Source of the DNA: Tachypleus tridentatus
Lineage: Eukaryota; Arthropoda; Merostomata; Xiphosura; Limulidae
Reading direction: 5' to 3'
Assembly: GCF_004210375.1 (NCBI RefSeq)
Contig: NC_134830.1
Span: forward strand, 5,332,001-5,396,000
Length of the DNA stretch: 64,000 bases
Below, piece by piece: positions 6,336 through 61,010 of the stretch (position 1 is its first letter; each line of letters starts with the position of its first letter). Both the position numbers and the translations under genes were made by a program. The notes beneath the pieces were generated by a model that saw nothing but the letters and a program-made list of their open reading frames with translations, had not been told where the DNA came from and ran no database searches.

Positions 6336-8076
6336 AAATGAAAAGCAGTGTTGAAACACCTCCTGGATTAATAGATATATCAAATGAAAAGCAGTGCTGA
6401 AATACCTCCTGGATTAATAGATATATCAAATGAATAGCAGTGTTCAAATACCTCCTGGATTAATAGATATATCAAATGAAAAGCAGTGTTCAAATACCTC
6501 CTGGATTAATAGATATATCAAATGAAAAGCAGTGTTGAAATACCTCCTGGATTAATAGATATATCAAATGAATAGCAGTGTTCAAATACCTCCTGGATTA
6601 ATAGATATATCAAATGAAAAGCAGTGTTGAAAAACCTCCTGGATTAATAGATATATCAAATGAAAAGCAGTGTTGAAATACCTCCTGGATTAATAGATAT
6701 ATCAAATGAAAAGCAGTGCTGAAATACCTTCTGGATTAATAGATATATCAAATGAAAAGCAGTGCTGAAATACCTCCTGGATTAATAGATATATCAAATG
6801 AAAAGCAGTGTTGAAATACCTCCTAGATTAATAGATATATGAAATGAAAAGCAATGTTGAAATACCTCCTGGATTAATAGATATATCAAATGAAAAGCAA
6901 TGTTGAAATACCTCCTGGATTAATAGATATATCAAATGAAAAGCAGTGTTGAAATACCTCCTGGATTAATAGATATATCAAATGAAAAGCAGTATTGAAA
7001 TACCTCCTGGATTAGTAGATATATCAAATGAAAAGCAGTGCTGAAATACCTCCTGGATTAATAGATATACCAAATGAAAAGCAGTGTTGAAATACCTCCT
7101 GGATTAATAGATATATCAAATGAAAAGCAGTGTTGAAATACCTCCTGGATTAATAGATATATCAAATGAAAAGCAGTGTTGAAATACCTCCTGGATTAAT
7201 AGATATATCAAATGAAAAGCAGTGTTGAAATACCTCCTGGATTAATAGATATATCAAAAGAAAAGCAGTGTTGAAATACCTCCTGGATTAATAGGTATAT
7301 CAAATGAAAAGCAGTGTTGAAATACCTCCTGGATTAATAGATATATCAAATGAAAAGCAGTGTTGAAATACCTCCTGGATTAATAGATATATCAAATGAA
7401 AAGCAATGCTGAAATACCTCCTGGATTAATAGATATATCAAATGAAAAGCAGTGCTGAAATACCTCCTGGATTAATAGATATACCAAATGAAAAGCAGTG
7501 TTGAAATACCTCCTGGATTAATAGATATATCAAATGAAAACCAGTACTGAAATACCTCCTGGATTAATAGATATATCAAATGAAAACCAGTACTGAAATA
7601 CCTCCTGGATTAATAGATATACGAAATGAAAAGCAATGTTGAAATACCTCCTAGATTAATAGATATATCAATTGAAAAGCAGTGTTGAAATACCTCCTGG
7701 ATTAATAGATATATCAAATGAAAAGCAGTGTTGAAATACCTCCTGGATTAATAGATATATCAAATGAAAAGCAGTGTTGAAATACCTCCTGGATTAATAG
7801 ATATATCAAATGAAATGCAGTGTTGAAATACCTCCTGGATTAATAGATATATCAAATGAAAAGCAGTGTTGAAATACCTCCTGGATTAATAGATATATCA
7901 AATGAAAAGCAATGTTGAAATACCTCCTGGATTAATAGATATATCAAATGAAAAGCAATGTTGAAATACCTCCTGGATTAATAGATATATTAAATGAAAA
8001 GCAGTGTTGAAGTACCTCCTGGATTAATAGACATATCAAATGAAAAGAAATGTTGAAATACCTCCTGGATTAATAG
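6336..8076. repeat. 46-bp minisatellite, about 38 copies
   Basis: Head-to-tail units of 46 bp with core GAAATACCTCCTGGATTAAT followed by AGATATATCAAATGAAAAGC. Copies are about 90-98% alike. Variants such as GTGTT/GTGCT/GTATT and ACCAGTACTG are spread through the array, suggesting ongoing homogenisation. Confidence 0.95.
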
Positions 8077-9554: not shown

Positions 9555-10013
9555 TCGGAAGGTGGTAGCAGTTCCATTAGAACATACAATCATCCAAATA
9601 TTTTAGCAGTCTTCCTACAACACACTATTGCTAGCAAGTGGTAAAAGTTCTCCTAAAACGTGCAATCACCAAAAACTGGTAACAGTCCTCCCTCTCCAAG
9701 AAACTCCAGAAAGTAGTAGCAGTCCCCTCTTTAGAATATACAACTACAGGAAAGTTGTAGAAGTCTCCCTAGAACATACAATCACTGTTTCCTAGAACAT
9801 ACAATAATCAGAAAGTTGTGGCACCCAACCCCCACTTCAGAATATACAACTACAAGAAAGTGGTAGGAGTCCCTCCAGTACATACAATCACTGGAAGGTG
9901 GTAACAGTACCATTACCATCAGATGTTTCAGAACCCCCTAGAATGTCAAATCACCAGAAATTCATATTGTATCCTAAAAATACCTAAACATTGTAGCATT
10001 CTCTCAAAACATA
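9555..10013. repeat. Degenerate flank of the 44-bp array
   Basis: About ten strongly diverged units with the pattern AGTGGTAGCAGTCC ... AGAACATACAATCA, recognisably related to the homogeneous array that follows. Lengths are irregular. Confidence 0.7.
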
Positions 10014-11030
10014 TCACAAAGTGGTAACAATCTCCCTGCCCCCAGAACATAAAACAATCACAAAACGGTAACAATCTCCCTGCCCCCAGAACATAAAACA
10101 ATCACAAAGTGGTAACAATCTCCCTGCCCCCAGAACATACAACAATCACAAAGTGGTAACAGTCTCCCTGCCCCCAGAACATACAACAATCACAAAGTGG
10201 TAACAATCTCCCTGCCCCCAGAACATACAACAATCACAAAGTGGTAACAGTCTCCCTGCCCCCAGAACATACAACAATCAAAAAGTGGTAACAGTCTCCC
10301 TATCCCCAGAACATAAAACAATCACAAAGTGGTAACAGTCTCCCTATCCCCAGAACATAAAACAATCACAAAGTGGTAACAATCTCCCTGCCCCCAGAAC
10401 ATAAAACAATCACAAAGTGGTAACAGTCTCCCTGCCTCCAGGACATAAAACAATCACAAAGTGGTAACAGTCTCCCTGCCTCCAGGACATAAAACAATCA
10501 CAAAGTGGTAACAGTCTCCCTGCCTCCAGGACATAAAACAATCACAAAGTGGTAACAGTCTCCCTGCCTCCAGGACATAAAACAATCACAAAGTGGTAAC
10601 AGTCTCCCTGCCTCCAGGACATAAAACAATCACAAAGTGGTAACAGTCTCCCTGCCTCCAGGACATAAAACAATCACAAAGTGGTAACAGTCTCCCTGTC
10701 CCCAGGACATAAAACAATCACAAAGTGGTAACAGTCTCCCTGTCCCCAGAACATAAACCAATCACAAAGTGGTAACAGTCTCCCTGCCCCCAGAACATAC
10801 AACAATCAAAAAGTGGTAACAGTCTCCTGCCCCCAAAACATAAAACAATCAAAAAGTGGTAACAGTCTCCCTGCCCCCAAAACATAAAACAATCACAAAG
10901 TGGTAACAGTCTCCCTGCCCCCAGGACATAAAACAATCACAAAGTGGTAACAGTCTCCCTGCCCCCAGAACATAAAACAATCACAAAGTGGTAACAGTCT
11001 CCCTACCCCTGAAACATAAAACATACAGCA
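10014..11030. repeat. 44-bp minisatellite, about 23 copies
   Basis: Near-identical units of 44 bp containing CACAAAGTGGTAACAGTCTC and CCTGCCCCCAGAACATAAAA. Runs of one variant (CCTCCAGGACAT) are adjacent, showing local block expansion. The minus-strand frames at 10718-11096, rich in CFMFWGQGDCYHF-like strings, are translations of the repeat and not genes. Confidence 0.95.
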
Positions 11031-12294
11031 ACTGGAATGCCCTAAATAATATGTAGCCACTAAATACTTACTGAAGTAAATCTTTAAGAAATACATAAAC
11101 TATTAGCTACTTTTCAAGGACTGTTCATGACCACTTACCTTCTAATCACCCAAGAAATACTGTACTAGACTTCTTACCTTCTGACACCCAAGGGTTAAGA
11201 AATACTGTACTAGACTTCTTACCTTCTAAAATGTTAAGAACTTTGCACTAGCTTGGAATGTTATTCTAATAACAGAATATATTATATGATGTGTAAAGAA
11301 ACTACTTGTCCAACAGTAAATAACAGCATTAAGATGTCGGGCAACAAGAATACCACATGCAATGCTTACAACAAAAGGTTTCTAAGCTCATCCATTTGAT
11401 GAACATCTCACATAAGTTATTGACATGAATGTAGGCCTAAGAACTAACTATTAGAAGTTTCAACATTTTGAAATAATGTATACAAATACTCCTGTACAAG
11501 GAAGGATCACCAGCCAATCCTGAACCAACAAAAGCAGGCCTTGGTTTACTGATTAGAAAAACATTGTTCTCAACAGATTTGGGAGAATTTGATGAATGGT
11601 CAAAATGACAGAAATCCACCAAGTGGCAACCATTTCTTAACCCAGTCTTTGTGGCTTTTTTTCTGTTCAGAAATTAAATTTACATTTCTGGGAATGTTGA
11701 ATTTGATCTGTCAGTCCCAAAATCTAAGTAGCTCTTTTCCAACCTCAAGGAAAGGAACATGTTGAGTTTAGACTAATTCTGCTGTTTATAACATGAGAAG
11801 TAAACAGCAACAGATGAATAGAAATGTCATCCACCATTCCCCAAAAAAAAACTTTTCAGTCAAGGGAATAAACTGTAAATAGAGCCCCAAAAAATGCCAA
11901 TGGACAAGGAAATGACAAAGGTTACAAATGTTATCTTTCCTTTATCCACAAGTTAGTATTATCTCTGACCTTCAGATTTCAACATGAAATCCTGAGATTG
12001 ACTTGAATCATGTTAACAACTAATTAATTGATAATGTCAACAAATTACTGAAAAACTAATGAAACATCAGTTTTAGATTATGTTTACGTCAGGATTCTTA
12101 AGAAAATCATAAATCAGATACGCATGTCTCACTCTTCTACTTTTGGTAGATCAACAAATAGTGGTCAGGTACCTGAAAATTGGAGAAATAATATTTCTTC
12201 TATTTTAAATGTGAATAACAAAATTATAGTTGAACTTGTCTCACTTCTCTAGCAAAAAAAAAGTTAAGACAGTCCAATGAAAGAAGTTTCAAAT
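11031..12294. other. Stretch without recognised gene
   Basis: AT-rich sequence. A near-perfect direct duplication (AGAAATACTGTACTAGACTT followed by CTTACCTTCT) is present at about 11154-11228. No exon or transposon was recognised. Confidence 0.4.
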
Positions 12295-12499
12295 AATACT
12301 TTAGTAAAAGGAAGTATCACATCAATACTTTAGTGAAAGGAAGTATCACATCAATACTTTAGTGAAAGGAAGTATCACATCAATACTTTAGTGAAAGGAA
12401 GTATCACATCAATACTTTAGTGAAAGGAAGTATCACATCAATACTTTAGTAAAAGGAAGTATCACATCAATACTTTAGTGAAAGGTAGTATCACATCAA
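12295..12499. repeat. 29-bp minisatellite, 7 copies
   Basis: Seven tandem copies of a 29-bp unit beginning AATACTTTAGTGAAAGGAAG and ending TATCACATC. Only single-base differences (GTAAAAGG, AAAGGTAG) are seen. Confidence 0.95.
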
Positions 12500-12865
12500 A
12501 GTGACAACACTGATTTATCAAAATGTCTTGTTCCTCTAATCTATTAACTTTTCCTTGATATATGACACCTTACAATATCTTGTTCATTGCAATGACAAGA
12601 TAACCACATCTGGTATATAGTACTGATAATTATTTGAAGCTCTCTCGTTTTTGTTTTCTGCAGTTTATGATGGTTCAATGTGAGAAACACAAACTCTGAC
12701 AAGTTGTGAATATTGTTTTTCACTATGTTAACTAAACAATAATAAAACACAAAAAGTTTCCACTTACTTTCTAATGTCAATGTTTCATCTACAAAGTTAG
12801 AAAATATTTTTCCATAACTTGTGAAATAAAAACAGTACACAACCAAACTTATATCTATCTCTTCT

Positions 12866-13915
12866 CTACCAGGGAAACCAGAACAAGAAACAAATAACAG
12901 GATCTAATTGTAACAACATAACAAATCATTCCACAGAACCCAGAACAAGAAACAAATAACAGGATCTAGTTATAACAACATAAAACCATTCCACAGAAAC
13001 CAGAACAAGAAACAAATAACAGGATCTAGTTATAACAACATAAAACAATTCCACAGGAACCAGAACAAACAAATAACAGGATCTAATTGTAACAACATAA
13101 ATCATTCCACAGAAACCAGAACAAGAAACAAATAACAGGATCTAATTGTAACAACATAACAAATCATTCCACAGAAACCAGAACAACAGACAAATAACAT
13201 GATCTAGTTGCGACAATATAACAAAACCATTCCACAGAAACCAGAACAAGAAACAAATAACAGGATCTAATTGTAACATAACAAAACCATTCATAGAAAC
13301 CAGAACAACAAACAAATAACAGGATCTAGTTGTAACAACATAAATCATTCTACAGAAACCAGAACAACAAACAAATAACATGATCTAGTTGTGACAATGT
13401 AACAAAGACATTCATAGAAACCAGAACAACAAACAAATAACATGATCTAGTTGTGACAATGTAACAAAGACATTCATAGAAACCAGAACACAAGAAACAA
13501 ATAACATGCTCTAGTTGTGACAATGTAACAAAGACATTCATAGAAACCAGAACAAACAAATAACATGACCTAGCTGTAACAACATAACAAAACCATTCAT
13601 AGAAACCAGAACAGATAAATAACAGGATCTAATTGTAACAACATAACAAAACCATTCTATAGAAACCAGAACAGTCAATGGCATGATCTAGTTGTTAAAC
13701 CATGAGTAACAGGTTTTAGAAAAGCCAGAACAGTCAGATGACAGGATCTAGCTTTTAAACTATGACTAATCTGTTATAGAGAAACCAGAACATTCAGATG
13801 ACAGCCTCTAGCTGTAAAACACTGAGTAATCTGTTCTATAGAAACCAGAAAAACAGTCAGACAACAGAATCTAGCTGTAAAACCATGACTAATCTGTCTA
13901 CAGAAACCAGAACAC
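12866..13915. repeat. ~62-64-bp minisatellite, about 16 copies
   Basis: Tandem units with AAACCAGAACAAGAAACAAA, TAACAGGATCTAATTGTAAC and AACATAACAAATCATTCCAC. The last units (13660-13915) are diverged, with CAGTCAGATGACAGGATCTA and ACTATGACTAATCTG variants. The minus-strand frames full of CYLFVVLVS-like strings are repeat translations. Confidence 0.9.
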
Positions 13916-14840: not shown

Positions 14841-15540
14841 GGTTGGTTGTTTGGTTGATTTAGTGTTTTATAGCACAAAGCAACTAGGCTATCTGTACCA
14901 AACATCTGGTAAAAAAGTATATTTAGTAAAATTCATAAAAGGAAATTAAGGTAAAACAAAACAAAGTGTGAAAAGAAAACATAAATAGCATAAAACAAAC
15001 GTTTACATCTAGTCTACAAGGTTAAGAGAAAAACTACAGTAATACAAGTTATAAAGGACTTTCTGTAGCACAATTGTAGTTATCATAACTTGCCAGGAAG
15101 ACTAATAGGTAAGTACAAAAACCACCATCACTCACCTGAAGCTGGACTTTCCAGTCCTGGTTTTGAGTTATTTGATGTTACAGCCATTTTCTAATTTCAA
15201 ATCGAACTAAATGGACTGTGATTCTTAACAGGGAATCACATTAAAAAAGTCTCATGTATAAATTAAAAAACTTAAATAGCATTAAAAAGATTAATGGCCT
15301 CTAAAGAACTAAAAACATTTCTAAGGTGGACAGTGTTACCATCACCAATAATACTGTCTAACGTTATGGACAAACCTTGGGACAGAACACGTTTAAAATG
15401 GTGCTGTCGTTGAGTAATAATGATAGCAAGAAAGTAAAATCTGGCTTATTGTGACTGAGTATTACACAGACTACACATTGGTGCATCAGTTCCAGATAAA
15501 AGAAAATGAGTTAAGAAACTGTGACCAATGCGTAGTCTAG

Positions 15541-18030
15541 TCAGAACAACTTCCTCTTCTGATCCTTATTGAAGCAATACAGCCAATGTCCAATATTGGA
15601 TTTTATTTGGAAAAGCTTGTTTTTGTGTTGCTCACTCCAAGTCGACTGCCAGCTGGCACAGAGGTGAGCCTTCAATGCAGGACCACCATAGTCCTTATGT
15701 GGAACAGGCACAGTGGTGATCGTGCCAGAGCAGATAGATTTAGCTGTGGTGTTGGCGAACTCGTTCCCATGAATATCAACGTGGTCCGGGTATCCAGAAA
15801 AACTAGACAAAAGTAGATGTTAAATAGAAATTGGCCAGTCAGTTTTGAATATTGGCAAGAACAAGGTGTGAACTAACGTGAAGCAATTCCAAGGCCAGTA
15901 GAGAACTAAGTGAGTCAGCATAAATAGTACAATTGGAGTACTGCTTAGCTTCTATGTGATCCAGGGAAAGATAAATGGCATACAGTTCAGCACTGAACAC
16001 AGAAGCTGTAAAGGGGATTCTGAATGCAACCACTGAACCACAACAAGCCAGGGCAGAATCCACACAGTCACCTAATTTCAAACCATCTGTATACATAGGA
16101 ATGAAAGGATGGTTCAAAAGATGTTCAGCAAATAACAGACAGTATTTCCAATCGGGAGTGTCTGTTTTTCTCAGATGACTTAAAGATAGGTCACATTTGG
16201 AGACTGTAAGAAGCCATGTTGGGATAGGCTGACCAGAGGATGCAACAATGTTATCCAAAGACAGACCCAATTTATCAAATTGCGCCCGGATACGAAGGTC
16301 AAAACGAGCAATGACAGATCGTCTGTTCTGAAAAATTATGGCCCACCGAGGAAGGAAACCAGAACTCCAGGTGGGATGCTTTGATAAGGAACGATGTTTT
16401 GAAGCATGTAGTAAAGACAGTTGGAAACGACAGAGATGCAAAGAAGGTTCATGAGACTCTATGTACAAGCTCTGAACTGGGGAGGTGCAGAAAGCCCCGG
16501 TGCAGATCCAAAGTCCTTGATGATGAATGGGGTCCAGCAGAGTTGAGAATCAGGGTGAATACCCTGTTGGTAGCAAAAGTGCATGTAAACAGTTTTAGAG
16601 AGAGAGAGAGAGAAGTTAAAGCCATTTGCTGTGGTCCACATCAGTAAATGACTGAGGGCAGTCTGTAGCTGCCATTTAATATACCTCATGTTTGACGACT
16701 GACATGAGATGTGAAAGTCATCGACACAAAGCCTGTTTGCAACAGTGAGAGGGAGTTGTTCAGTGATGGCATTAATCTTTGTACTGAAAACTGTGACATT
16801 CAAAACACAGCCTTCAGGGACTCCAATTTCCTGTAGAAAAGAACGGGAAAGTGTCAAACAAACTTGTAATCTCTTGTCCATTAAAAATTTTTAATAAAAA
16901 TGAGCAAATGGCCATGTAACCCATATATATGGAGGTCTTGCAAAATGCCATACCTCCATGTTGTATCATAAGCCTTCTCAATGTCAGAGAATATTGATTC
17001 AAGATGTTGTCATTTGAGAAAGGCTATTCTGATTGCCATTTCAAGTCAAAATCAGGTGATCCACAGTGGAGCACTGTCTTTGGAACCCACACCAGATAAG
17101 TGAGAGGAGGCTGTTTGATTTGAGAAACCAAACAACACGAGTATTAACCATCCTCTCTAAGGTCTTACAGAGACAGCTCATCAAAGCAGCTGGACGGTAG
17201 TTTGAAGGAATCTTGAGATCCTTCCCAGGCTTACAGAAAGGTAGGACAATAGCCTGGTGCCAGGCATCAGGAAAAATATTCTCCTGCCAAATCTGGTTAA
17301 AAACAATCAGAAGAATAACAAGAGAAGCAGGAGATAGATGGTGCAGCATTTCATAGTGTACATCATCAGGTCCAGCTTATGTACTGCCAAACTGATGAAG
17401 GGCCAGTTTAAGTCCCACTAATGTAAAGGGATGATTATTGTCATGGAGACTGTCAGCTCGAAAGGAAAGAGGTGATCTCTCTGGCCGAGTCTTGATGGCT
17501 AAGAAAGTAAAGGAAGAAGTGGAAGTGCTAGATACCCAGCAAAAGCTTTCACCTGGAGTATCGGCGATACTCCAGGTATCAGCTACTTCCTGGCCATCAG
17601 AGAGCAAGATTGAAAGGGGGACAGAATTATATTGCCCACTGACCTTTTGATTCTTGTCCCATGTGACTTTGGAACTGGTGGTAGAAGATGTGCTGGTTGT
17701 GAACTTAATCCAAGATTCCTTCTAGCTTTGACATCTTACCCACTGAGCATGTGCGTGGGCCTGCTGAAAAGCAATGCAGTTTGAGAATGTGGGATATCTA
17801 CAGAAAGTATCCCAGGCCCATTTTTGAGTCTTCCATGCCATGTGGCAGGCAGGATTTCACCATGGATGAAGACATAGTGGAAAACGTGTTGAGGTTTTAG
17901 GAATACATTGAGCAGCTGCTTGTATAATACATTCAGTTACTGCTGCCACACAGTCATCTATTGATGGCTTACAGATGATGGCAGAATCAAGTTCTGAGTT
18001 CTGCAAGAGCAGTGAAAAAGGGCCAGTTTG
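15541..18030 (-). pseudogene. LINE copy A ORF2 remnant (RT and RNase H)
   Basis: Fragments in successive frames form a decayed polymerase. The pre-RT linker (17607-17377) has LSDGQEVADTWSIAD. RT N-terminal motifs lie at 17349-17041 (FPDAWHQAIVLPFCKPGKD, IPSNYRPAALMSCLCKTLER, ending FQRQCSTVDHL). RT palm is at 16881-16459, with GVPEGCVLN and CVDDF where Y/F-x-DD is expected, so the catalytic DD is kept but the preceding aromatic is C. RNase H is at 16468-15541 (MYTDGLKLGD, ELYAIYLSLDH, IYADSLSSL, then PDHVDIHGNEFAN). At least five frame breaks make it non-functional. The endonuclease is not found. A short GA microsatellite lies near 16598-16613. Confidence 0.8.
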
Positions 18031-18039
18031 TGTGGTTCA

Positions 18040-18864
18040 CTACCACGTGGTGAACAGCAACTTTCGAGCCTCAGGATAAGTAATGTTATGAATCATTTTC
18101 AAACGTTGCACCTCATTTTCTGCCAAACATTTAAGGCAAGAACGAAAGTAAAATGGGTGAGAGCCATTGCAATTGACACAATGAGGATTCGTTTCACACT
18201 CATAGGCATCATGGTCCTTGCCACCACAACAAGCACACATCAAAGGACCATGACATAATGCCTCTGAGTGACTGAACTGCTGACACTGGAAACATCGGAG
18301 AGGGTTTGGAATGTATGGCTATACCCTGGAATTAAGATAACCTGCCTTGATGGTGACAGGTAGATGTGGTGATATAAATCTCATAATGAGGATATTGGTC
18401 AGCATCATAATTCTATCTTTGCAAGTGGAAATACACCTCACTGCAGAATCTCAAGTGGAGAAACCCGCAAGAATCTCTGACTCAGGGATGTTATTCAAAT
18501 CCCTCTCAACAATAACTCCTCATGATGAATTTAAAATAGCATGAAGTGTAACTTCAATAGGTATATTCCCAATCGCCTTTGAATGCAACAGGAGTTCAGT
18601 GTTGAGATGTGGATATTTCCACCAATGTCACCAAATTGAAGCTTCTTTACTGACATTGTAGAGCCAGCAAGTCCCTCTAGTCCCTTCTGAATGAAGAAGA
18701 GACATCTGCCCTAAAGGTTTGTCTGAAAGAGAATGTATTATAAGAAAATGAGGTACAACAGGTGTTACAGATGTTGAAAGTTGCTGCTCAGAATCTTCAA
18801 GATGTGGTCATTTACCTATGGACTGTTTTTCACTATTTTATTTGTTTTTATTTAGAGGATGCAT
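18040..18864 (-). pseudogene. LINE copy A gag remnant with CCHC zinc knuckles
   Basis: The minus strand has a possible ATG at 18864, the gag block (LIIHSLSDKPLGQMS near 18740, IGNIPIEVTLHAILNSS near 18570) and the knuckle segment at 18243-18040: CACCGGKDHDAYECETNPHC then CVNCNGSHPF, followed by NITYPEARKLL. This order is that of ORF1 of arthropod Jockey-like LINEs, where it packages element RNA. Stops and frameshifts interrupt it. The frame ends just before the RT linker, at the putative deletion junction. Confidence 0.75.
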
Positions 18865-19446
18865 GATAAATAAAGGAAATTTCAATGCCCATTGACCCCA
18901 CCCACCATGAAGCCCTACGAGGGGATGCACTACAATGTCAAACAAGGACACTGCAGCTACGTCATGGTTTTGTGAGCACTATACCCAAACACCAACATCA
19001 GATTCAACATCCACAACACCTGTTGAGAACATTCAACACTGATACTTGGTTGATCCTAGCCCAATTGGACTGCCCAACTGAACCCAAGGGGGGCCACCCC
19101 AAAGTTGCCCATCTACAAGAATTCAAGGCCAAAGTGGTGTGTTAGGGTTGGATCCCTCAACCACCAGGATCCTCTCCTCCCCTTCATGGGTTGCCATGCA
19201 TGGCAAACATGTGGGTGAATGTTTAGATCCCAGAAGAGATAAATTGAAAGAACAGAACATTCCCTGGGAGGTCGCCTCACCATGTACAGGAATCCACACC
19301 AAGGGGGCATGGTGAACAAACCAAAGACAGGAATGCAACTAACAAGATATCCAGATATGCAAGTAATTAGTTATGATGTCCATCTTAGTTATCCACAGAC
19401 ACGGAGAGAAACCCCACCTCACTGATGCTGCTGGTGACATAGCCAT

Positions 19447-21060
19447 CTACATCAAATAAAATGACAAAATAAAAGTACCTTGAATGGAGGAACAAGTAAA
19501 GGCTGAGGAGGACTTGGATGAGAAACAGGAATTAGAGAAGGATTGGGTGTCGACACACAGATTCCACGCATGATTCCAAAGACAAGCATTAACCATCATC
19601 TCCAAGACCTTACAGACACAGCTAGTCAAAGTAATTGAATGATAAATTAGAAGGAATGTTGGGATCCTTCCTATATTTAGAAAATGGTAGGACAATAGCC
19701 TTGCACCAAGCATCAAGAAGAACATTCTTCTGACAGATCCACTTAAAGACAAGCAGACTAAGAGCAAGACAGTCAGGAGAAAGATGTTTCAGCACCTCAT
19801 AATCAACATCATCAGGTCCAACTAATGTACTGCTAGACTGATGAAGAACAAACATGATATCCACTAGTGCAAATGGATTATCATATTTGTAGAGATGATC
19901 AACCCAAAAGGAAAAAAGCAATCACTCTGCCCAAGACTCGATGGCCAAGAAAGCAGGGGAGGAAGCAGAAGTGCTAGATGAGAAAAGCTCTTGCTGAGAG
20001 TATCACCGATATTCTGTACACCAACAACTTCCTGGCCATTGGAAAGCAAGATGGAAAGAGGGTGTGAAGTAGTGACCTTCTGAATCTAGTCCTATAGGAC
20101 TTTCAAACTGGTAATAGAATAGGTGGTAGTTGTAACTTAATACAAAATTCCTTTTGGCTTTGACGTCTAACATGCTGAGCATGGATATGGGTCCGCTAAA
20201 AAGCAATGTGGTTGAAGAGTGGGATACCTGTGAAAGTATCCCAAACCCATTTCTGCACCTTCCATACCTGCTGGCAGCATATTGAATATTTAGCTACAGA
20301 ATGAAAGCAGATGCTTGAATGATATAATCAGTTACTGCTTCCATGTAGTCATTAATAGATGGTAGACTAACAACAGCAGAATCAAGTTCCTAAAGAGAGG
20401 TGAAAGAGAGTCAATCAGTCTCCACCTTGACACTCAAGAGTTGGGTGGTACCAACCACAGCCAATCTCCCTCAAAACTAGTAGGAAAATTACCATTGTCC
20501 CACGGGTGACAGTCAACCCCCCAAGAAAAATGAAAGGTGAGGGGGAAAAGATAGATATATAAATAGCAATAAAAGATTGACTAAACAAATGAAATTATGT
20601 AAAAGAACCAATAATGAAGAGAAAACAGTTATGATCTGGGAGCATATGGAATGACTCCTTTCCTCCGTATCAGCACCACCCCACTGAAGTCTCCCAAAAT
20701 GAAGGAGAGAGAGTACCAAGGTCTGACTGATTTTAAGTCTCTACAGGAAACATGTAGGGGAACAAACAGTGATGGTACAACACAAGGAAACATGAATGGC
20801 TATGACCTCCAATGGTGTATACAATAACACAGACAAGGTGGGAACATGCTGATCAACAAACAGTGCCACCCCTTCATGAACCTGTCCATCAAACAACCTG
20901 TCATTTCAGTATAAAAAAAAAACTGTCAAAAGATGACAGTATCAGTTGGTGTCAAGAATGCTTTCTGTAAGGAACATACACTGGATGATAAAAATCAATC
21001 AAGGCCTTAATGTTATTTAAGTTAGAAAACCTTGATAGTTCCACTGTATCAAAGTGGCCA
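19447..21060 (-). pseudogene. LINE copy B endonuclease and RT N-terminal remnant
   Basis: The minus strand has an endonuclease start near 21060 (TLIQWNYQGF, like the IQWNC-x-G start of Jockey-type AP endonucleases), VDQHVPTLSVLL and ITVCSP near 20860-20740, and WGGADTEERSHSI near 20690-20640. The RT linker has LLFSGPISMLSMLDVKAKRN, LSNGQEVVGVQNI and VGPDDVDYEVLKHLSPDCL, then LDAWCKAIVLPFSKYRKDPN. Several stops and frameshifts occur. This copy keeps the endonuclease that copy A lacks, and loses the RT catalytic core that copy A keeps. Confidence 0.75.
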
Positions 21061-22655: not shown

Positions 22656-24179
22656 ATGGCTGATTGTCGAAAACGCAAAGTGCTTTCACTAGAAGATCGT
22701 GTGAAAGTTGTTTGAAGGCAGCAAGAGCTGCAGAAAAATTGCAGAATCCATGAACGTTGGAAAGACACAAATACAGAGCATAGTAAATGACAAAGAAAAA
22801 ATAATATCACTGTGGCAAAATGGTGCTAACACTGGCCAAAAATATCAGAAAGGATGGAAAACAGTCTACACGGAGCTGAACGAAAGAGTGTGGGACTGGT
22901 TTTGTGCCGCACGTGCCAAAAACCACCCTGTTACTAGTGTAGCCTTGAAGGAATATGCACTGATGAAAGCCACAGAAATGAATCTGGATGACTTCACTGC
23001 CTCCAATGGTAATTATTTAGGCCTATAAATTTCCAGCTTGATAACCCAAAATGTTTTAATATGCATTCACTTTTGTTTTACTTGACTTGAATAAGTTTAA
23101 GTTACTTTCATAAATTTTAGCGCGTGTTTTGTTTTCTATATTACAGGCTGGCTAGAGGCTTTCCAAAAACGCAACAATCTGTCCATGAAAGTGTTGAATG
23201 GAGAAGCAGCAGGCGTGAATCCTGCAACAGTCGATGACTGGAACAAGCGCCTGGCAGCTATTACCGAGGGCTCTGAGGTTGAAGGATATCTTCAACGCAG
23301 ATGAGACGGGCTGTTCTATAGAGCCCTACCCACCCGTTCACTTGTCAAGAAGGGGACACTTGCAGTGGGGCAAAATTCAAGGAGCTGCTCACCATTTTAC
23401 TCGCATGCAGTGCCTCCTCCGAAGCTGACCCCATTAGTGATCGGAAATCTGCCAAGCCCAGCTGTTTTGGCAGCCTGTCAACATCATCGCTTCCCATAAT
23501 ATATAAACACAATAAGAAGGCGTGGATGACCAGCACTATCTTCAGGGATTGGCTCACAACTATCAACAATAAAATGAAGCTGCAGAAGAGGAAAATCCTT
23601 ATGTTTGTGGACAACTGCCCCGCTCACCCCGCCATCACCCTGTCAAATGTCAAGCTGCATTTCCTGCCTCCGAACACGACATCAAAGCTACAGCCATGCA
23701 ACGCAGGAATCATCCGTGCTTTCAAAGGCATTACAGGAAGCGGCTTGTGAGGCATGTGCTGTTCCAAATGAATGAAACAGACCTTGCAACAGACATCGCG
23801 ATCTGTGAACATTCTGGACATGGTGTACTGGTGTAAACAAGCATGGGATTGTATTACCGCTGAGACAGTGATCAACTGTTTTCGGAAGTGTGGTTTTGTA
23901 GCTTTTGCTCCAGCCACAGAGGACACACCACAACTGGAGCTACCCACAGCAGATCCAGACTTTGAGCATGTCCTGGGTGGTACATCCTGGGAGGATTTCA
24001 CTGACTGCGACAGTGACATAGTCAGCACCGTCCAGTTTGGAGACAACTGGCAGAAGGAGCTCGATGAAGCAGCTGCTGGTGAGCACCAGGAGCCAGAGCA
24101 GGAGCAACAAGACCAGGAAACTGGAGACGACTTTGTTCCAGGCAACAAGGAGATGGCTAGATGCCTGGAGTATCTTTGA
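22656..24179 (+). pseudogene. Tigger/pogo-like transposase (CENP-B HTH plus DDE), decayed, with one intron
   Basis: Starts ATG at 22656 (MADCRKRKVLSLEDRVKVV), with a frameshift near 22705. The N-terminal psq/CENP-B-type HTH has SCRKIAESMNVGKTQIQSIV, and a second Tc5-type HTH follows to 23008. A plausible 138-bp intron (GTAATT at 23009, ending TTACAG at 23146) restores a frame continuing WLEAFQKRNNLS. The DDE domain has FNADETG (first D), FVDNCPAHP (second D), FLPPNTTSKLQP and GIIRAFK; about 30 residues after the second D the sequence reads CNAG where LDxG is expected, so the third acidic residue is N. An acidic C-terminus (EHQEPEQEQQDQETGDD) follows. Several frameshifts; not functional. Confidence 0.85.
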
Positions 24180-24572
24180 AAGTGCGCAGTGGCCCAGAAC
24201 AACGCAGAACTTTTGAATATTGTTCAGAGTGGACAGAAGTCAGTGACCGTGTTGGCTCAGCAGACCAGAAAAAAACAGTTGTGCATTCAGGACTTTTTCA
24301 AACTGTAAATAAAGTTAATAGAGTCTACATGTATTGTAAAATTGTTTTTGTACATATTGCTGTTAGTTTGTTTTTTCCTTTTTTGCTAAGAAAAAAAAAT
24401 ATAAGAAGAAACAAATGAAAAGCCTTTCTTTGTTTTCTTTGTTAACTTCAAAATATGTACAAATAAAAAACAACAACATGCAAACAATGGGCTCCTGCAA
24501 TAACAGACCACCTGCTGTTTAAGACCACTATTGCTCTGCAGAAGGGGTGGTCTTAAATACCAGGATCTACTG

Positions 24573-25130
24573 TATATTTAATGCACTAAGGGCCCAGTTG
24601 GCAATAAAAGAACCACAACACAATGTCTTTGAATAACCAAACTGCTGACACTGAAAACACTGCAGAAAGTAAGAAATATATGGCCCTACCTTATAACTAT
24701 GATAACTGGCTTTGATAGAGGTAGCGGACATCTAGGTGTAAATGTCAAACTAAAAACATTGGTAGGCAACATAATTCCATCTTTAAGAGTAGATATGTTG
24801 CTCTGCAGAAGTTCTTTGACAAGAGAAACCACTGAGGATCTCTGAATCATGAATGTTTTTTTGAAATTACTCTCAATAATAACTCCTCATGAAAAATTCA
24901 AAGTAGCCTCAATGGATATATCCCCCATGGCCCGAGAACTCGGGAGAAATTTAGTGTATTTTGGTCAAGATGTTTCCACCAAGACATCCCCAGAATGTAG
25001 CTTCTTGAATGATCCTGGAGAGCCAGCAAGCCCCTTTATTGCTTTCTCAATAAAAATGGAGACATTTTTTCCTATAGGTTTTTCTGACAAGGAAGGCAAA
25101 ATGAAGAAAATGTAGTACTGGATGAATAAG
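24573..25130 (-). pseudogene. LINE copy B gag N-terminal part
   Basis: Minus-strand frame with LPSLSEKPIGKNVSIFIEKA, GLAGSPGSFKKLHSGDVLVE (25075-24965) and MGDISIEATLN (near 24915). It parallels copy A gag and stops at the transposon. Stops are present. Confidence 0.7.
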
Positions 25131-25961
25131 AGTTGAAGATTGCTGGTCTGAGTCTTCAAGATGTAGTAACTTACCACTGAGCTGTATTTTTACTGTTTTA
25201 TTTATTTACTTTTTGGATAGGAGGATTCATAATGAAAGGGGAATCATTCAGTTCCCACCGACCCCAATCCACCTTGGACTCCTGCAAGGAGATGCACTGC
25301 AATGCCAAAAAAGGACATGCAGCAACACCAGAGCTTCATGAACACCATTCCTAAACATTAGCATCAGACAAAATGTCTAAAACACCTACTGAAAATTCCC
25401 AACAGTGGTACTCGATTGACCCAGGGAGGACCATCCCAATGGTACCTGTCTACAAGATTTCAAGGCCAAAGAGATGTGTTGCAGTGCTCCATATACCACT
25501 CAGCCAATAAAATCCTATCCTCCACTTCACGGATCACCATTCATGTTGCATATTCAGATTCCAGGTAAACTGAACACAGAGAACCTTTCATGGAGGTCCC
25601 CTCACCTTGTCCACGAACCTATTTCTAAGGGACATAGTATGTTACATGAAAGTATGTTTCAAGTTTCATTACAATGTTGTGGTCCATGTTGTCCACATAC
25701 AAAAATTCTTTCTAGGAGCATGAATGGAAACAACAAAATCTGAATTATAACAGAAAAGTTCTCAATAAGTTGATATACACTCTGCACTCAATGTTGAATT
25801 ATATAGGTATTAATAGCACATTAGAGACCACTGTTCATTCTTCATTATTAAAAAAAATTGGAGTTAATTTTTAGCTCGGATTAAAAAATATTGCACTTGT
25901 TAACAAATATATTATCAAACCTTTGTTCAAAACCAGAAAGAAATCACTGTGTACAGTCTTG

Positions 25962-34293: not shown

Positions 34294-34571
34294 GACCCGG
34301 CATGGCCAGGTGGTTAAGGCACTCGACTCGTAATCTGAGGATCGCGGGTTTGAATCCCCGTCACACCAAACATGCGCTCCCTTCAGTCGTGGAGGCGTTA
34401 TAAAGTGACGGTCAATCTCACCATTCGTTGGTAAAATTGCTACCCAAGAGTTGGCGGTGGGTGGTGATGACTAGCTGCCTTCCCTCTTGTCTTACAATGC
34501 TAATTAGGGACGGCTAGCGCAGATAGCCCTCGAGTAGCTTTGCGCTAAATTCAAAACAAAACAAACCAAAC
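34294..34571 (+). mobile_element. tRNA-derived SINE (family 1), near full length
   Basis: The tRNA-like head has A box TGGCCAGGTGGTTAAGGC, an anticodon-loop-like ACTCGTAATC, B box GCGGGTTTGAATCCCCG, and CACCA. The body is ACCATTCGTTGGTAAAAT, then GAGTTGGCGGTGGGTGGTGA and CTAGCTGCCTTCCCTCTTGT. The tail is GCGCAGATAGCCCTCGAGTA, GCTTTGCGCTAAATTC and an AAACC-rich end. Best preserved copy of the family here. Confidence 0.9.
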
Positions 34572-35490: not shown

Positions 35491-35741
35491 CTTGTTTGTT
35501 TTTGAACTTCTCGTGAAGCTACACGAAGGCTATCTACGCTAGCCATTCCTAATTAAGCAGTGTTAGACTAGAGGGAAGACAGCTAGTAATCAGCATCTAT
35601 TGCCAACTCTTTTACCAACAAAAAGTAGGATTGGCCTTAAATTATAACGCCTCTACGGCTGAAAGGGCGAGCGTGTTTGATATGAACCCGCAATCCTTAG
35701 ATTATGAGTCAAGCACCCTAACCACCTGACCATTTCGGGCC
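35491..35741 (-). mobile_element. tRNA-derived SINE (family 1)
   Basis: Reverse-orientation copy: tail GAAGCTACACGAAGGCTATC, body GACTAGAGGGAAGACAGCTA and CCAACTCTTTTACCAACA, head ending CCCTAACCACCTGACCATTT. Diverged B box. Confidence 0.85.
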
Positions 35742-36097: not shown

Positions 36098-36318
36098 GGG
36101 CCTGACATGGCCAGGTGGGTCAATGCGTTCGACTCGTAATTCGAATGTCGTGGGTTCGAATCCCCGTCGCACCAAACATGCTCGCCCTTTCAGCCGTAAA
36201 GGCGTTATAATGTGACGGTCAATCCCACTATTCGTTGGTAAGAGTAGCTCAAGAGTTGGCGGTGGGTGTTGATAACTAGCTGCCTTCCCTCTAATCTTAC
36301 ACTGCAAAATAAGGGACA
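36098..36318 (+). mobile_element. tRNA-derived SINE (family 1), tail truncated
   Basis: Head GGCCTGACATGGCCAGGTGG with GTGGGTTCGAATCCCCGTCG and CACCAAACATG. Body AGAGTTGGCGGTGGGTGTTG. It ends after the ACTGCAAAATAAGGGAC region without the GATAGCC tail. Confidence 0.9.
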
Positions 36319-36897
36319 TTTCAAACTTAACATTAAAACGCCTTACGAGTAAGTGAAAACGAGGATTGCTTGTATTGTCTGTTGGAAAATTGGCTCTTTC
36401 AGTCAAAGGTCCTTGTTTTAAACCCCAGTCCAAGTTTCTTTTCACTTACAATTATGTATTACGAACATCTGGTTCGGTCCAGTGATCAACTGAAAGATGC
36501 TCAGACAAAATATGCGAATTTAAACAAATTATCCAATGGATTATGATTAGTGCAGAAAGACCATCATAGCAAAAAGTGGTTCCGTCAGCCCAACGACGAA
36601 AATATACTGACCACAGTGGGATTTCTTATGCCTACAAGAGAGCTTATTATGCTGAAAATGAGAAGAAACCAGTAGACAGAAGCAACGACTCCTTAATTTC
36701 CAAAACTTTCTAATGGCTAATTTTGTAGATATTAAGAAGACAATAGAGAGAGAGACCAAAATAGTGCTTCTATTGAGTTGGGTTTCGGAGATTAATAGTG
36801 AATTGGAGTAAATCTTGTGAATTTATGCTATGAATGTAAAGGTCTAGAAACATTGGTCACTACAGAAGTATTGTGTCAGAGTTCATCTGAGTTGGTT

Positions 36898-36950
36898 GCT
36901 TTGTTTGTTTGAATTTAGCGCAAAGCTACACGAGGGCTATCTGCGCGAGA
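36898..36950 (-). mobile_element. SINE family 1 tail fragment
   Basis: Only the 3' tail is present in reverse: TTGAATTTAGCGCAAAGCTA, CACGAGGGCTATCTGCGCG. Consistent with a severely 5'-truncated insertion. Confidence 0.75.
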
Positions 36951-37347: not shown

Positions 37348-37599
37348 GTGGCCCCGCCCAAATGGTTAGGGCGCTTGACTCGCAATATGAGGGTCGCGGG
37401 TTCGAATCCCCGTCACACCAAACATGTTTCAGCTGTGGGAGAGTTATAATGTCAACCCCACTATTCGTTGGTACTGGATATCCTAAGAGTTGGCACTGGG
37501 TGGTGATGACTAACTCTTCCCTCTAATCTTACAGTTAAATTAGGGACTGCTAGCGCAGATAGCCCTCTTGTACATTTGTGCGGAATTAAAAAGAAGAAA
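37348..37599 (+). mobile_element. tRNA-derived SINE (family 1)
   Basis: Head GGTTAGGGCGCTTGACTCGC and GTCGCGGGTTCGAATCCCCG, CACCAAACATG, a partly deleted body (GAGTTGGCACTGGGTGGTGA), and tail AGCGCAGATAGCCCTCTTGT. Two internal deletions against the 34294 copy. Confidence 0.9.
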
Positions 37600-38300: not shown

Positions 38301-38550
38301 CTTGTTTTAGAATTTCGCGCAAAGCTACTCGAGGGCTATCTGTGCTAGCCGTCCCTAATTGTGCAAGACTGGAGGGAAGGCAGCTACTCATCACCACCCA
38401 CCGCCAACTGTTTTACCAACGAATAGTGGGTAACATTATAACGCCCCCAAAGGGGCTGAAAAGGCGAGCATGTTTGGCGCGACGTGGATGCGAACCCGCG
38501 ACCCTCAGATTACGAGTCGCACGCCCTAACCCACCTGGCCATGCCGAGCG
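38301..38550 (-). mobile_element. tRNA-derived SINE (family 1)
   Basis: Reverse copy, well preserved: tail AATTTCGCGCAAAGCTACTC and GAGGGCTATCTGTGCTAGCC, body CACCACCCACCGCCAACTG, B box region GCGAACCCGCGACCCTCAGA, A box end CCCACCTGGCCATGCCG. The plus-strand frame across it is a shadow. Confidence 0.9.
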
Positions 38551-48100: not shown

Positions 48101-51100
48101 GGACTTAACATTATTTTCAATTAAATGCTGTTTCAAAAGAGAAACAAATCCTAATTTTACCCAAGTCATGATGAGAGCGTCATCTGTTGTGACAGAAACC
48201 AGTTTTATGAAATCCAGACTGAATTTTTTTGACATTTCAAGAAATGTTTCATAGATGTCTTTTCCATATGTTCGATCTCGTAATTCACAAAAGTCAAGCA
48301 TTTCTTCCCTCACTTGAGGATCTGAAGTTACATATCGAACCCAAAATATCAACTGATCAGTGTTACTGACAACTATTGAATCATCTAGTGCTAAAGAAAA
48401 ATACAAACAGTGTTTTAGTTGTTCAAGCAACAGATTTTCTGTCTTTCACTAACTCTACCATTCTGCAGACAATTGTTCTTTGATTAAATTACAAATTATA
48501 TGCCTTTTGAAGAATATTATGTTTTATTTTTGAATCATAATTCTCCAACAGAGTTTCAATGACCACAATCAATATTTCGTTTACTAGTTCAGCATCAGAA
48601 AATGATTTCTTTTGTTGAGCTGGTATCCAGGCTATTTTATAGCTAGTTAACATAACTAGTTATATTAATGATAAACATATTTATAGCCCTCCCATGTGAT
48701 TGTGTTTCAGACAGCTAATTTTATTTCCAAATGGGTGGAGTCTGTGGCAGTGATAAAACTTGTGACGTCAGCAATGATGTAAAGGCAGTGCAGTTGCTGA
48801 TTACCAAATTTGCAATACCAGAATGATGGAAAAAGTTGACTTCTAAACTTAAGATGGCCAAATGTGGCCAGTGGCCATGGAGTTGCCCACCCCTGCTATA
48901 GATCCTAGTCTGACTTGTACATTTCTTACTACTGGATATTTTACTTTTATCACAGTGTAGTTTATGTTATTTGTTCTGATGTTAAAATTTAACACAATTA
49001 TTGTGTCATGTACACACACTTCAAGCACCATAAATAATTTTATCTACAGTTATAAGCACCTTTTCTCCACGCAACTCTGGGACAGCATCCCTCAAGCTAC
49101 TAAAGCTGTCTTTTATGTGGTCTCGTCTTTTCCTTTCTAAAGCATTATGATGTGCCCTTTTTTCTGCCTGAAAGAACAGTTTTATTTAAAAATATTAGAC
49201 ACTTTGAACTGTACATTTGTATATTTTTGGTGTTCCAATCTGATTACTTTTACATGGTGAGTAAGTTTTAACATTAACAGTTAATACAAGTCAGTATCTT
49301 AATTCAAGTTTTCTAACAAATACAGACACAGGAGACATAAAATTTTTGTTTTTCATTTCCATAAACTTAAAACGTAATTCTGTAATAAACAAAAGAGAAA
49401 TCAACACATTTATAAGTTCTAGTTTTTTTCCTTTTATAAGTTTTACTGATAGACTAAAATTGTCCTTGCATTTTGTGGCATGAAAGGTTTTCCTGGTCAC
49501 TAGTTCTGGACATTTAAAACTAGATGGTTCTTAGTGGATTTAATAAAAAGCTGGAAATAATGGATGGTTAAGCTCCACAAAGATGTAAACAACTTAATTA
49601 TTTGTAACAGAAGTGAACATTTATGATATTGCAAGGGGTTATCTGTTAAAACCACACTATAAAGTTAAACACAATCGTTTTAAGAATACTTCATATAAAA
49701 AATAAGAGCTGGGAAGTTTTTAATGTTTCTCCTAACAACTTTCTTGTTGCTTTTGTTTATGGCGTTTCCTTCTGAAAGCATGATAAATATTTCTTTACTC
49801 CAATAAGTAAGATAAACACATTTCACTGATTAGTATGGTGGACTAAAGCACGCTGTGTAACGACCACTGATGGCAGTTTGTTGTTGACCAATTGTGATTT
49901 ATATTTATAGAAAAATAATCAGCAAGTGATATATGTTAATAAACATAAAACATGTTAAAATGAGACGTAAAAAATAGAAGCTTTTTTTTCAGGGATTTCA
50001 GCAAATTAAGAAATATTCTGAACTTGTTTTGAATTTTGAGTAAGGGTACATGAGGGTTATCTGTACTAATTTAACGATGAAAAACTATATGGAAGGCAAC
50101 TGGTCATCACCACCCACTACCAATTCTTGGGCTACCTTTTTACCAATTAATAGTGGGATTGACCATTGCATTATTGTGCCCCAACAGCTAAAAGGGCATA
50201 CATGTTTGGTGGGATGACAATTCAAACAAGTGACTGCAAATTGTGAGTCAAGCTCCCTAACCACCAGGCCATGCTAAGCTTCTGAACCTGGACTTACTTG
50301 TTATCAGCAATTTGTACTGTTGGATCTTAAACTCGGTGCATCGGCACTGCCACAAAAATGAAGGAAAATTTTGAAAACCAGCACAAACTCAATGTTGGGA
50401 AGTTCTGGGGGCTTCTGAAACTTCAGGCTCAAGATATATTGACTGTTTTGTTTATACTAGAAGAGCAGCACCTACATAGGAAAATGTGTATACTAAGCCC
50501 CTAGTCCCCTGAAGTTAAACCTGTTTCTTAAACATGTCATTTGTTGACTGTTAGAGCACACTACCTTAAAAACTAACTAAAAACAAAATGCGAGTGATAT
50601 AAATGAATAAATGAAAAAGATCAAATAAAAATAATATCATATCTCACAACATCAAAACAATCCACAGAGCTTCCAACCATTTGTAAAGTGTGACATTTTT
50701 AATTCTAAACTTTGTATTTCATTCTATATTGTTTGTATAACATTAATGTTGCTCTGTAGTAAAACTATTTACTTACCAAGCCTTAACTAAATCATATTCC
50801 TACATACAAATAATTTCTGTATAGAATTTAAAACAGGGAAGGAGTTACTTATAAACCTTAATAACAACACCTCAAATACTTTAAAGTAGACGAACAATTT
50901 TGCCAAAGTTGAAAACATTTAAAGAGAAGGTATTTAAAAAATATTTCTGAAAAGTAATCCCAAATTATACACCTTAATCTCAGATGTTCATTTTTAAGCA
51001 TTTGGAATACTTCTTTACAGCATGTAAAAATAAATGAATTTTTATTTATTTATTTTATGGCATCATCTCTTTAACATAAATCTTTAAAGCAATGTTCAAG

Positions 51101-58514: not shown

Positions 58515-58738
58515 AGCCGTCCCTAATTTTGCAGTGTAAGACTAGAGGGAAGGCAGCTAGTCATCACCACCCACCGCCAACTCTTGGGCTACTCTTGTAC
58601 CAATGAATAGTGGGATTGACCGTCATTTATAACAACCCCACGGCTGAAAGGGCGAGCATGTTTAGCGCGACTGGGATGCGAAACCGCGACCCTCAGATTA
58701 CGAGTCGCACGTCTAACGCGCTGGGCCATGCCGGGCAC
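58515..58738 (-). mobile_element. tRNA-derived SINE (family 1), tail truncated
   Basis: Reverse copy with GCCGTCCCTAATTTTGCAGT, GACTAGAGGGAAGGCAGCTA, CACCACCCACCGCCAACTCT, GGTTG-less B box region GAAACCGCGACCCTCAGAT, and CTGGGCCATGCCGGGC. The GATAGCC tail is missing; it abuts the RTE-like tail. Confidence 0.9.
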
Positions 58739-59264: not shown

Positions 59265-59410
59265 AGAAATAACATACAATATTTACAATAATCAAATAAG
59301 AACATACAATATTTACACTAATCAAATAAGAACATACAATATTTACACTAATCAAATAAGAACATACAATATTTACACTAATCAAGTAAGAACATACACT
59401 ATTTACACTT
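59265..59410. repeat. 30-bp tandem repeat, about 4-5 copies
   Basis: Units AACATACAATATTTACACTA followed by ATCAAATAAG at 30-bp spacing, with edge copies diverged. Confidence 0.9.
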
Positions 59411-59684: not shown

Positions 59685-59792
59685 CTCCATTGGGTTTACG
59701 GATTTACAACGCTAAAGTTATGAGTTATATTCCCTTCGGTGGACACAGAAGATAACCTGATGTGGTTTTGCTATATGAAGAATACAACACAC
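59685..59792 (+). mobile_element. Diverged tRNA-derived SINE (family 2)
   Basis: Aligns with the 60528 copy: GGATTTACAACGCTAAAGTT, TTCCCTTCGGTGGACACAG, GATAACCTGATGTGGTTTTG, CTATATGAAGAA. B box mutated. Confidence 0.7.
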
Positions 59793-60527: not shown

Positions 60528-60643
60528 GCCCCCGCTAGTACAGCGGTATGTCTCCGGACTTACAACGCTAAAATCAGGGGTTCGATTCCCCTCGGTGGGC
60601 TGAGCAGATAGCCCGATGTGGCTTTACTATAAGAAAAAACACA
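60528..60643 (+). mobile_element. tRNA-derived SINE (family 2), well preserved
   Basis: The tRNA-like head GCCCCCGCTAGTACAGCGGT (A box), GGACTTACAACGCTAAAATC (anticodon-arm region), and GGGGTTCGATTCCCCTCGGT (B box) closes with GGGCT, then the tail GAGCAGATAGCCCGATGTGG, CTTTACTATAAGAAAAAACA. The head nearly folds as a tRNA, but the acceptor stem carries an extra base and it is fused to the SINE tail, so it is not an active tRNA gene. Confidence 0.85.
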
Positions 60644-60852
60644 TCAATCTTTTTTCACATATATTCTTACAATTGTTTCTTTCATTTAAAGTTATGTTCG
60701 CCGCTAATAAGCTAATAATAGTTGTTATTCCTCATGTTGCAGTATAGAATGTATTTCCACCTAGCTCATTAAATGTATTTTAACTTTTTCCTTTCCGTAA
60801 TTGGTAATTTTGCTCGCTTGTTGAAATCAAACTTTTTTAATAGCCTGATTTA

Positions 60853-61010
60853 GTTTGGTTTGTTTTGAATTGTGCGCAAAACTACACGAGGACGATCTGT
60901 TCGAGCCGTTCCTAATTTTGCAGTGCAAGACTAGAGGGAAGGCAGCTAGTCATCACTACTCACCGCCAACTCTTGGGCTACTCTTTTGCCAGCGAAGAGT
61001 GGGATTGTTT
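60853..61010 (-). mobile_element. tRNA-derived SINE (family 1), 5' truncated
   Basis: Reverse copy with tail GTTTTGAATTGTGCGCAAAA, CTACACGAGGACGATCTG, body GACTAGAGGGAAGGCAGCTA and CCAACTCTTGGGCTACTCTT. It stops before the tRNA head. Confidence 0.85.

Follow-up and report, generated by a model that had tools for sequence, protein, structure and literature searches.

Stringent recognition of a 3' tail by the LINE protein is described for UnaL2, ZfL2 and SART1 in excerpts of PMC4176376 and PMC3747384, and the loop is the specifically recognized part of the tail according to an excerpt of the former. Such SINE/LINE tail pairs reveal which enzyme copies which parasite. As excerpted, PMC3747384 gives 58 SINEs with a partner LINE stated, and its 2013 Table 1 has a single row for Protostomes, that of Gecko. 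We describe here a system from the horseshoe crab Tachypleus tridentatus, present in a stretch of 64,000 nucleotides (the window) at 5332001-5396000 of contig C6 and followed through an assembly of 205 contigs totalling 2.17 Gb. A single class of 3' tail is carried by one LINE and by no fewer than three SINE families, and one of these families is apparently young and one old, a combination useful for studying how SINEs change partners. Given the single protostome row in the excerpted table, a genome with a LINE and at least three such SINEs is a useful case.

The system is an ordinary stringent-type SINE/LINE tail partnership. The elements have a tail in common and carry it at their 3' terminus; target site duplications (TSDs) flank SINE2, some SINE1 copies and some tail-only insertions; and the tail sequences are compatible with a hairpin that shows a few compensatory changes between families. 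Our main reading, to which we give a probability of roughly 0.8, is stringent-type retroposition built on a LINE lineage's 3' tail, a probable hairpin with an A/C repeat, through which at least three SINE families were copied in trans and whose donors were several related LINE lineages. A non-LTR lineage would tag its RNA with this tail, probably a hairpin (CAGA-UA-GCC loop GC-UUUG) that leads into a short A/C-rich repeat. On recognizing the tail, the LINE reverse transcriptase would nick the target and use the repeat to prime copying, and SINE1, SINE2 and SINE3 RNAs with the same tail class would be copied in trans by target-primed reverse transcription. The hairpin would form in the cell, and the donors would be several related LINE lineages, not the LINE A family alone. 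Coordinates of the features are collected in Table 1.

Table 1. LINE and SINE features of the window, with positions counted from its first letter
Feature	Positions	Strand	Remarks
LINE copy A	14841..19443	minus	frameshifted non-LTR retrotransposon; 5' end approximate (~19443)
Terminal A/C-rich run of LINE A	14841..14870	minus	homology among 30/30 copies stops here
LINE A 3' hairpin (predicted)	14871..14900	minus	UGGUACAGA-UA-GC...GC-UUUGUGCUA
RNase H-like motifs of LINE A	15544..16100	minus	YTDG, SAELYAIYLSL, YADSLSSL, IHGNEFANTTAK; by eye
ORF1-like zinc knuckles of LINE A	18043..18318	minus	CFQCQQFSHSEALC...; by eye
LINE copy B, reverse transcriptase N-terminal part	19450..20389	minus	identity to LINE A 72.6% across 716 bp and 75% across another 84 bp
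LINE piece like LINE A ORF1 part	24604..25617	minus	66.5% identity to LINE A 18239-19292
SINE1 copy a, full length	34296..34570	plus	tail 34520-34570; TSD CCTCTCCACGTGAC / CCTCTCTACGTAAC
SINE1 copy b, with tail	35492..35740	minus	
SINE1 copy c, stops at body/tail junction	36100..36317	plus	then ATTTCAAAC, like sequence normally 3' of the hairpin
Tail-only insertion	36896..36946	minus	hairpin and AAAC run without SINE body; TSD GCAACCATCTC / GCAACCAACTC
SINE1 copy d, with tail	37363..37592	plus	aligned core; element start near 37350
SINE1 copy e, with tail	38302..38546	minus	TSD AGCTTACAACAC / AGCTTCCAACAC
SINE1 copy g, with tail, old	50024..50274	minus	80% to consensus; TSD CAGGTTCAGAA / CAAGTTCAGAA
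SINE1 copy f, without tail, stops at body/tail junction	58515..58736	minus	
SINE2 copy, degenerate, with tail	59690..59785	plus	no clear TSD
SINE2 copy, full length	60528..60643	plus	tRNA-like head, tail 60603-60643; TSD TCAATCTTT; B box GGTTCGATTCC
SINE1 copy h, 5' truncated, with tail	60849..61007	minus	

LINE copy A is probably internally deleted. Two of its reverse transcriptase pieces match Pfam RVT_1 under Pfam's cut-off, 17044-17376 with E 6e-4 and 16459-16890 with E 3e-4; pieces picked by eye and read across the breaks give E 2.2e-14. By eye, we take the motifs at 15544-16100 to resemble RNase H; Pfam and PDB sequence searches for an RNase H in LINE A returned nothing credible. L2 LINEs are not known to carry RNase H, so LINE A would not belong to L2 if these motifs are real. 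The zinc knuckles have no Pfam match, and no endonuclease domain was matched in selected open pieces of LINE A, a copy that by eye looks deleted there. The element ends in CAGATAGCC...GCTTTGTGC and then the A/C-rich run, its 3' terminus reading GGTACAGATAGCCTAGTTGCTTTGTGCTATAAAACACTAAATCAACCAAACAACCAACC on the minus strand. A candidate TSD, TTTGATGTAGATGG near 19456 and CTTTATGTAGATCACT after 14841, is weak, equally good matches being numerous nearby. The 3' end of LINE copy B was not found within the window; the ORF1-like piece perhaps belongs to the same LINE copy as B. Between these two LINE pieces lies a Tc5/pogo-like DNA transposon (22705-24180; HTH_Tnp_Tc5 1.6e-7, DDE_1 1.9e-22). The window also holds about 93 copies of a 63-bp tandem repeat (25977-31825), in which one frame stays free of stops over as many as 505 codons because the unit is a multiple of three, and minisatellite arrays with units of about 29-60 bp at 5600-6039, 6336-8076, 10006-11023, 12278-13914, 51465-52519 and 59260-59417.

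SINE1 occurs in the window as eight copies, six with a tail and two stopping at the body/tail junction, plus one tail-only insertion. Three of the six tail-bearing copies (a, e and g) have a TSD score of at least 8, a count with no shifted control. The 284 kb of fetched sequence, in which 20 loci had been chosen for a SINE1 tail, contain 98 chained SINE1 hits, fragments counted. The SINE1 consensus and the window copy of SINE2 match the B box GGTTCGANTCC exactly; in SINE1 copy a it is mutated. Against Rfam tRNA the SINE1 head scores 18.2 bits (gathering score 29); the SINE2 head has no Rfam tRNA match, and its 16.8 bits for the tRNA-like mascRNA model lie below that model's gathering score. 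ARAGORN called no tRNA in the 64-kb window, and its calls on the consensus were only low-scoring and conflicting.

From 423 first-look candidates in the genome-wide search for SINE2, 40 were scored and 20 fetched. Identity to the window copy is 95-99% among the 40 scored (100% where it meets itself), and a TSD score of at least 8 is reached in 18 of the 20 loci versus 2 of 80 shifted controls; the misses are locus L163 and locus L154, which was mis-anchored in scoring yet has a 12-nt TSD. One fetched locus holds a tandem pair of SINE2 copies (L157:1380-1545). A third family, SINE3, has SINE2's tRNA-like head (BLAST) and the end AGCACAGATAGCCCATTGTGTAGCTTTGTGC, a different tail of the same class. 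This more diverged family accounts for 11 places in the fetched loci that are closer to SINE3 than to SINE2, L160:2826-2967 and ten further ones, one of the 11 being the duplicated pair L188/L189.

The original prediction had claimed, from three tail sequences in the window, that the LINE and two SINE families share a tail. All three sit where it placed them, the LINE one on the minus strand, and the sharing extends genome-wide and to SINE3 as a third family. Its reading of the SINE2 tail is right for the copy at 60603, which has GGCTTTACTATAAG, and wrong for the family, since 19 of the 20 SINE2 loci have GGCTTTGCTATAAG and the sole exception, L151, is the window copy. When the LINE core is searched for on the two strands of the 64-kb window, SINE tails take the next six places, with scores from 32 to 24; four are of SINE1 type (36913 minus, 34550 plus, 38312 minus, 37590 plus) and two are SINE2 (60634 plus, 59779 plus). 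Other sites start at 22, a score that copies b, g and h, the older ones of SINE1, do not reach.

Shuffled queries in the window, LINE A and consensus tests excluded the A/C runs. For the SINE1 consensus tail, the 3' end of LINE A is the best site in that element; none of 2000 shuffled queries equals it anywhere in LINE A, one of 5000 shuffles does as well within the last 65 nt, and none of 60 shuffled windows does so. The tail of SINE1 copy a is equalled anywhere in LINE A by one of 2000 shuffled queries. For the SINE2 tail the corresponding figures are 1/5000 (last 65 nt), 17/2000 (anywhere) and 10/60 shuffled windows. With the LINE core as query, the SINE1 score is reached in 1/60 shuffled windows and the SINE2 score in 19/60. 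Because 10 and 19 of 60 shuffled windows match its score, the SINE2-LINE likeness taken alone is not significant window-wide, its strength being confined to the LINE 3' end. When tails are compared with the LINE 3' consensus, 5, 40 and 128 of 10,000 shuffles equal or beat SINE1, SINE2 and SINE3, so all three SINE tails beat shuffled sequence in the comparison of consensus 3' ends that had been proposed as a check.

A tail model was built from SINEs only, with seven SINE1-type tails (one of them the tail-only insertion), two SINE2 tails and no LINE. Run on the window, it ranks the LINE A 3' end 10th, directly behind its nine training sites, with 18.7 bits and E 0.045; the next site has 10.6 bits and E 3.9. 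A sequence-only version gives the LINE A 3' end E 0.005, from which we conclude that the structure term contributed nothing. The SINE-only model finds 20 of 30 LINE loci at their 3' end with E of at most 1, LINE A (L121) among them.

Those 30 loci were fetched from 5120 first-look candidates for the LINE 3' region, of which 40 were scored; the best-scored copies are 85-89% identical to LINE A. In every one of the 30 fetched LINE 3' ends, LINE A included, the tail and a CAAC/CCAA-type run are followed by unlike flank, and the 20 nt displayed beyond the A/C-rich run differ between copies. The finding that 30 of 30 fetched copies end in the tail settles that the true LINE 3' end does not lie elsewhere, the outcome that the original prediction had named as counting against it. 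The 5' arm varies across copies as GG[TC][GA]CAGA. An exact match of at least 9 nt to the 3' flank occurs upstream in 4 of 30 loci, which span 1.5 kb upstream only, and shifted controls are similar.

A hairpin in the tail is plausible, not proven. A stem can be drawn in all four families, with constant CAGA and UUUG, a bulged UA, an upper stem of short GC/GC type and varying outer pairs; in LINE A, all 11 pairs of the stem drawn on the SINE tails are standard pairs. At position -1 the pair is G-C in SINE1 and SINE2, A-U in SINE3 and R-U in the LINE; at position -2 it is C-G in SINE1, A-U in SINE2, C-G in SINE3 and Y-G in the LINE. Position -3 is unpaired in SINE2, and position -4 is G-C in the LINE, A-U in SINE3 and unpaired in SINE1 and SINE2. 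Over the outer four pairs of the four family consensuses, one of which (SINE3) was made by eye, own arms pair in 13 of 16 cells, compared with 31 of 48 for swapped arms, and three of the four positions show double changes; the true assignment of arms, one of 24 in all, ties with one other, in which SINE1 and SINE2 are exchanged. Covariation among the window copies themselves is not above shuffles. A double compensatory change in LINE A (simulation P 0.006 to 0.04) was dropped as a candidate, the family level being G/A facing U.

The original prediction had called for comparing predicted stem-loops, and that comparison is divided. The stem forms in the folded consensus of the LINE (z -1.9, or -3.6 in CpG-intact form) and of SINE3 (z -0.7); at minimum energy, the consensus tails of SINE1 and SINE2 adopt another hairpin (GGCUA...UAGCC and GGGCU...AGCCC). 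SINE1 copy tails, by contrast, folded into the drawn stem. Among folds of single window-copy tails, none is far from shuffles except that of SINE2, which is the other hairpin. The loops read GCC-TAGCT-GC in the LINE, GCC-CTCGTGTA-GC in SINE1 and GCC-CGATGTG-GC in SINE2, and the terminal repeats are CAAC/CCAA runs in the LINE, AAAC runs in SINE1 and CA-rich in SINE2.

That the likeness arose by chance, as short motifs beside A/C-rich runs, is highly improbable. The shuffled-window counts for SINE2, in either direction of comparison, are what such a reading can draw on; the SINE1 shuffles, the SINE-only model and the consensus tests speak against it, A/C runs having been kept out of the shuffled queries, and the conservation of all 30 LINE ends together with position-specific matches largely excludes it. 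A more serious competitor is a reverse direction or a common source, in which recombination carried an old tail sequence from SINE to SINE and its likeness to the LINE is a distant one. The tRNA-like head common to SINE2 and SINE3 fits this, as does the 84% likeness over 49 nt of SINE1 and SINE3 tails in L160; yet the likeness falls exactly at the LINE 3' terminus, where a mobilization signal is expected, and we hold such an origin to be quite unlikely.

The original prediction had both SINEs borrowing the tail from this very LINE family. The position-specific 3' tail and the TSDs bear out the sharing; the loops and terminal repeats differ. That the LINE A family itself was the tail source, as one partner for all the SINEs, we judge unlikely, less so than recombination between SINEs. 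The common CAGATAGCC and GCTTTG blocks point that way, the LINE A 3' end is the best non-SINE match in the window, and we interpret the variable 5' arm as the product of CpG decay of GGCGCAGA, which includes the GCGCAGA of SINE1. Against it are the differences in loop sequence and length and in terminal repeats, and unequal apparent ages, the best-scored SINE2 copies being 95-99% and the LINE copies 85-89% identical to their window copies. These identities suggest, without proof, that the LINE A family is not the current mobilizer of SINE2. Because the loops differ and the loop is reported as the specific part of the tail, the tails are more likely to have come from several related LINE lineages than from the LINE A family alone. 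No LINE with the exact SINE1 tail was found upstream of the 20 body-less SINE1 tails that were read.

Body-less tails were sought genome-wide with a pattern requiring the exact 23-nt SINE1 tail core and non-SINE1 letters at four set places before it; this gave 428 sites, and a reversed control pattern gave 0. Twenty of the 428 were read, all from contig C1. Eight of these are deletion variants, in which SINE1 body lies no more than 40 nt upstream. A TSD score of at least 10 is reached by seven of the 20 loci (six independent) versus 2 of 100 shifted controls. The seven (L171, L172, L178, L187, L188, L189 and L190) all fall among the other 12 loci and none among the eight deletion variants; L188 is a paralogue of L189, and both of them, like L172, have low-complexity repeats. 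The duplication ends two bases before GCAG in six of the seven, so that the insert begins at the stem base in these; in L187 the scored match ends four bases before it. In L190 the insert interrupts a LINE copy whose two flanking parts align to LINE A (positions 144-864 and 852-1390). The sequence CCTCTTGCATTCA flanks the insert on both sides and occurs once in LINE A as CCTGTTGCATTCA, a 13-nt target with one mismatch. Since LINE A matches both flanks, it shows the site without the insert, and the tail-only insertion is proved in this one case by a LINE copy as empty site.

Among the 100 matches listed of the 428, 89 are distinct; setting aside 34 that carry letters of the SINE1 body leaves 55. 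These 55 retain the SINE1 letter in 43 cases at position -1, 49 at -2, 40 at -3, 22 at -4, 23 at -5 and 4 at -6; the pattern reveals breakpoints in about seven positions only, so these counts locate the start and do not prove a hot spot. In the 284 kb, with the centres of L171-L190 excluded, 52 SINE1 copies reach the tail, 37 with the full 5' end and 15 with a later start, 11 at consensus 27-120 and four at 214-224. Of the last four, L160 is SINE3, L184 seems to be a SINE1 with an internal deletion and L176 is a 35-nt match, so the only clean tail-only case is the one in the window. With one clean tail-only case versus 11 starts elsewhere in the body, this sample gives no support for a hot spot at the hairpin base. 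In the 1.5 kb upstream of the 20 body-less tails, LINE A DNA matches only at L190, where the LINE is the target, in a search that could miss a LINE unlike A; LINE A protein pieces match nothing in the same sequence. At L187:2161-2324 and in copy c, SINE1 body is joined to post-hairpin-like sequence as if the hairpin had been skipped.

The tail-only insertions fit priming followed by an early stop. A further, tentative proposal, which we rate as possible and somewhat doubtful, is that the hairpin alone is a sufficient retroposition unit. Perhaps at least 100 TSD-flanked inserts of about 45-60 nt would then start from the stem base, with the reverse transcriptase releasing or the template ending there, and the hairpin-skipped SINEs (copy c and L187) would be the reciprocal scar. 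If the hairpin-only class is real, its members would serve as minimal substrates provided by nature, showing where a reverse transcriptase begins and ends its copy, and the minimal recognition signal could be read from sequence.

In other collections, a short tail pattern has at least 120 loci in viral_contigs; longer exact tail patterns have none there and none in genome_contigs. Viral or prokaryotic kin were considered and rejected, BLAST of the LINE and the SINEs giving only 23-nt LINE-tail matches at six loci, taken as chance; SINE1 copy a has no match in phages or plasmids. Among the open-access papers surveyed on horseshoe-crab and chelicerate SINEs, none describes these elements in its title or abstract start, and tail sequence fragments searched there as text brought up nothing related.

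The system belongs to a known kind; its less usual feature is the apparent insertion of bare hairpin tails. Eel UnaL2 with UnaSINE1/2 and zebrafish ZfL2-1/ZfL2-2 are likewise stringent, with a stem-loop in the LINE/SINE tail and, in UnaL2, short 3' repeats (PMC4176376 and PMC3747384, as excerpted). They are L2-clade elements established by retrotransposition and binding assays, whereas our case rests on sequence and a predicted stem-loop; the likeness to eel UnaL2 is one of mechanism. For monocot ZmSINE2/LINE1-1_ZM, the excerpted PMC3747384 likewise has a hairpin model from LINE-SINE compensatory changes; that pair differs in its L1 clade, plant hosts and T-rich SINE ends. PxSE5 and SfSE1 with PxLINE1 in Lepidoptera are also arthropod SINEs with a LINE 3' end, and PxSE5 differs in being 5S-rRNA derived, a likeness drawn by description from an excerpt of PMC8010984. 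The closest listed case in the excerpt of PMC3747384 is the Gecko SINE and I-clade LINEs of Aedes aegypti, again a SINE with a tRNA promoter that shares a LINE 3' end in an arthropod. Compared with Gecko as described there, the horseshoe crab has at least three SINE families on one tail class, with the RNase H and zinc-knuckle likeness of LINE A seen by eye only.
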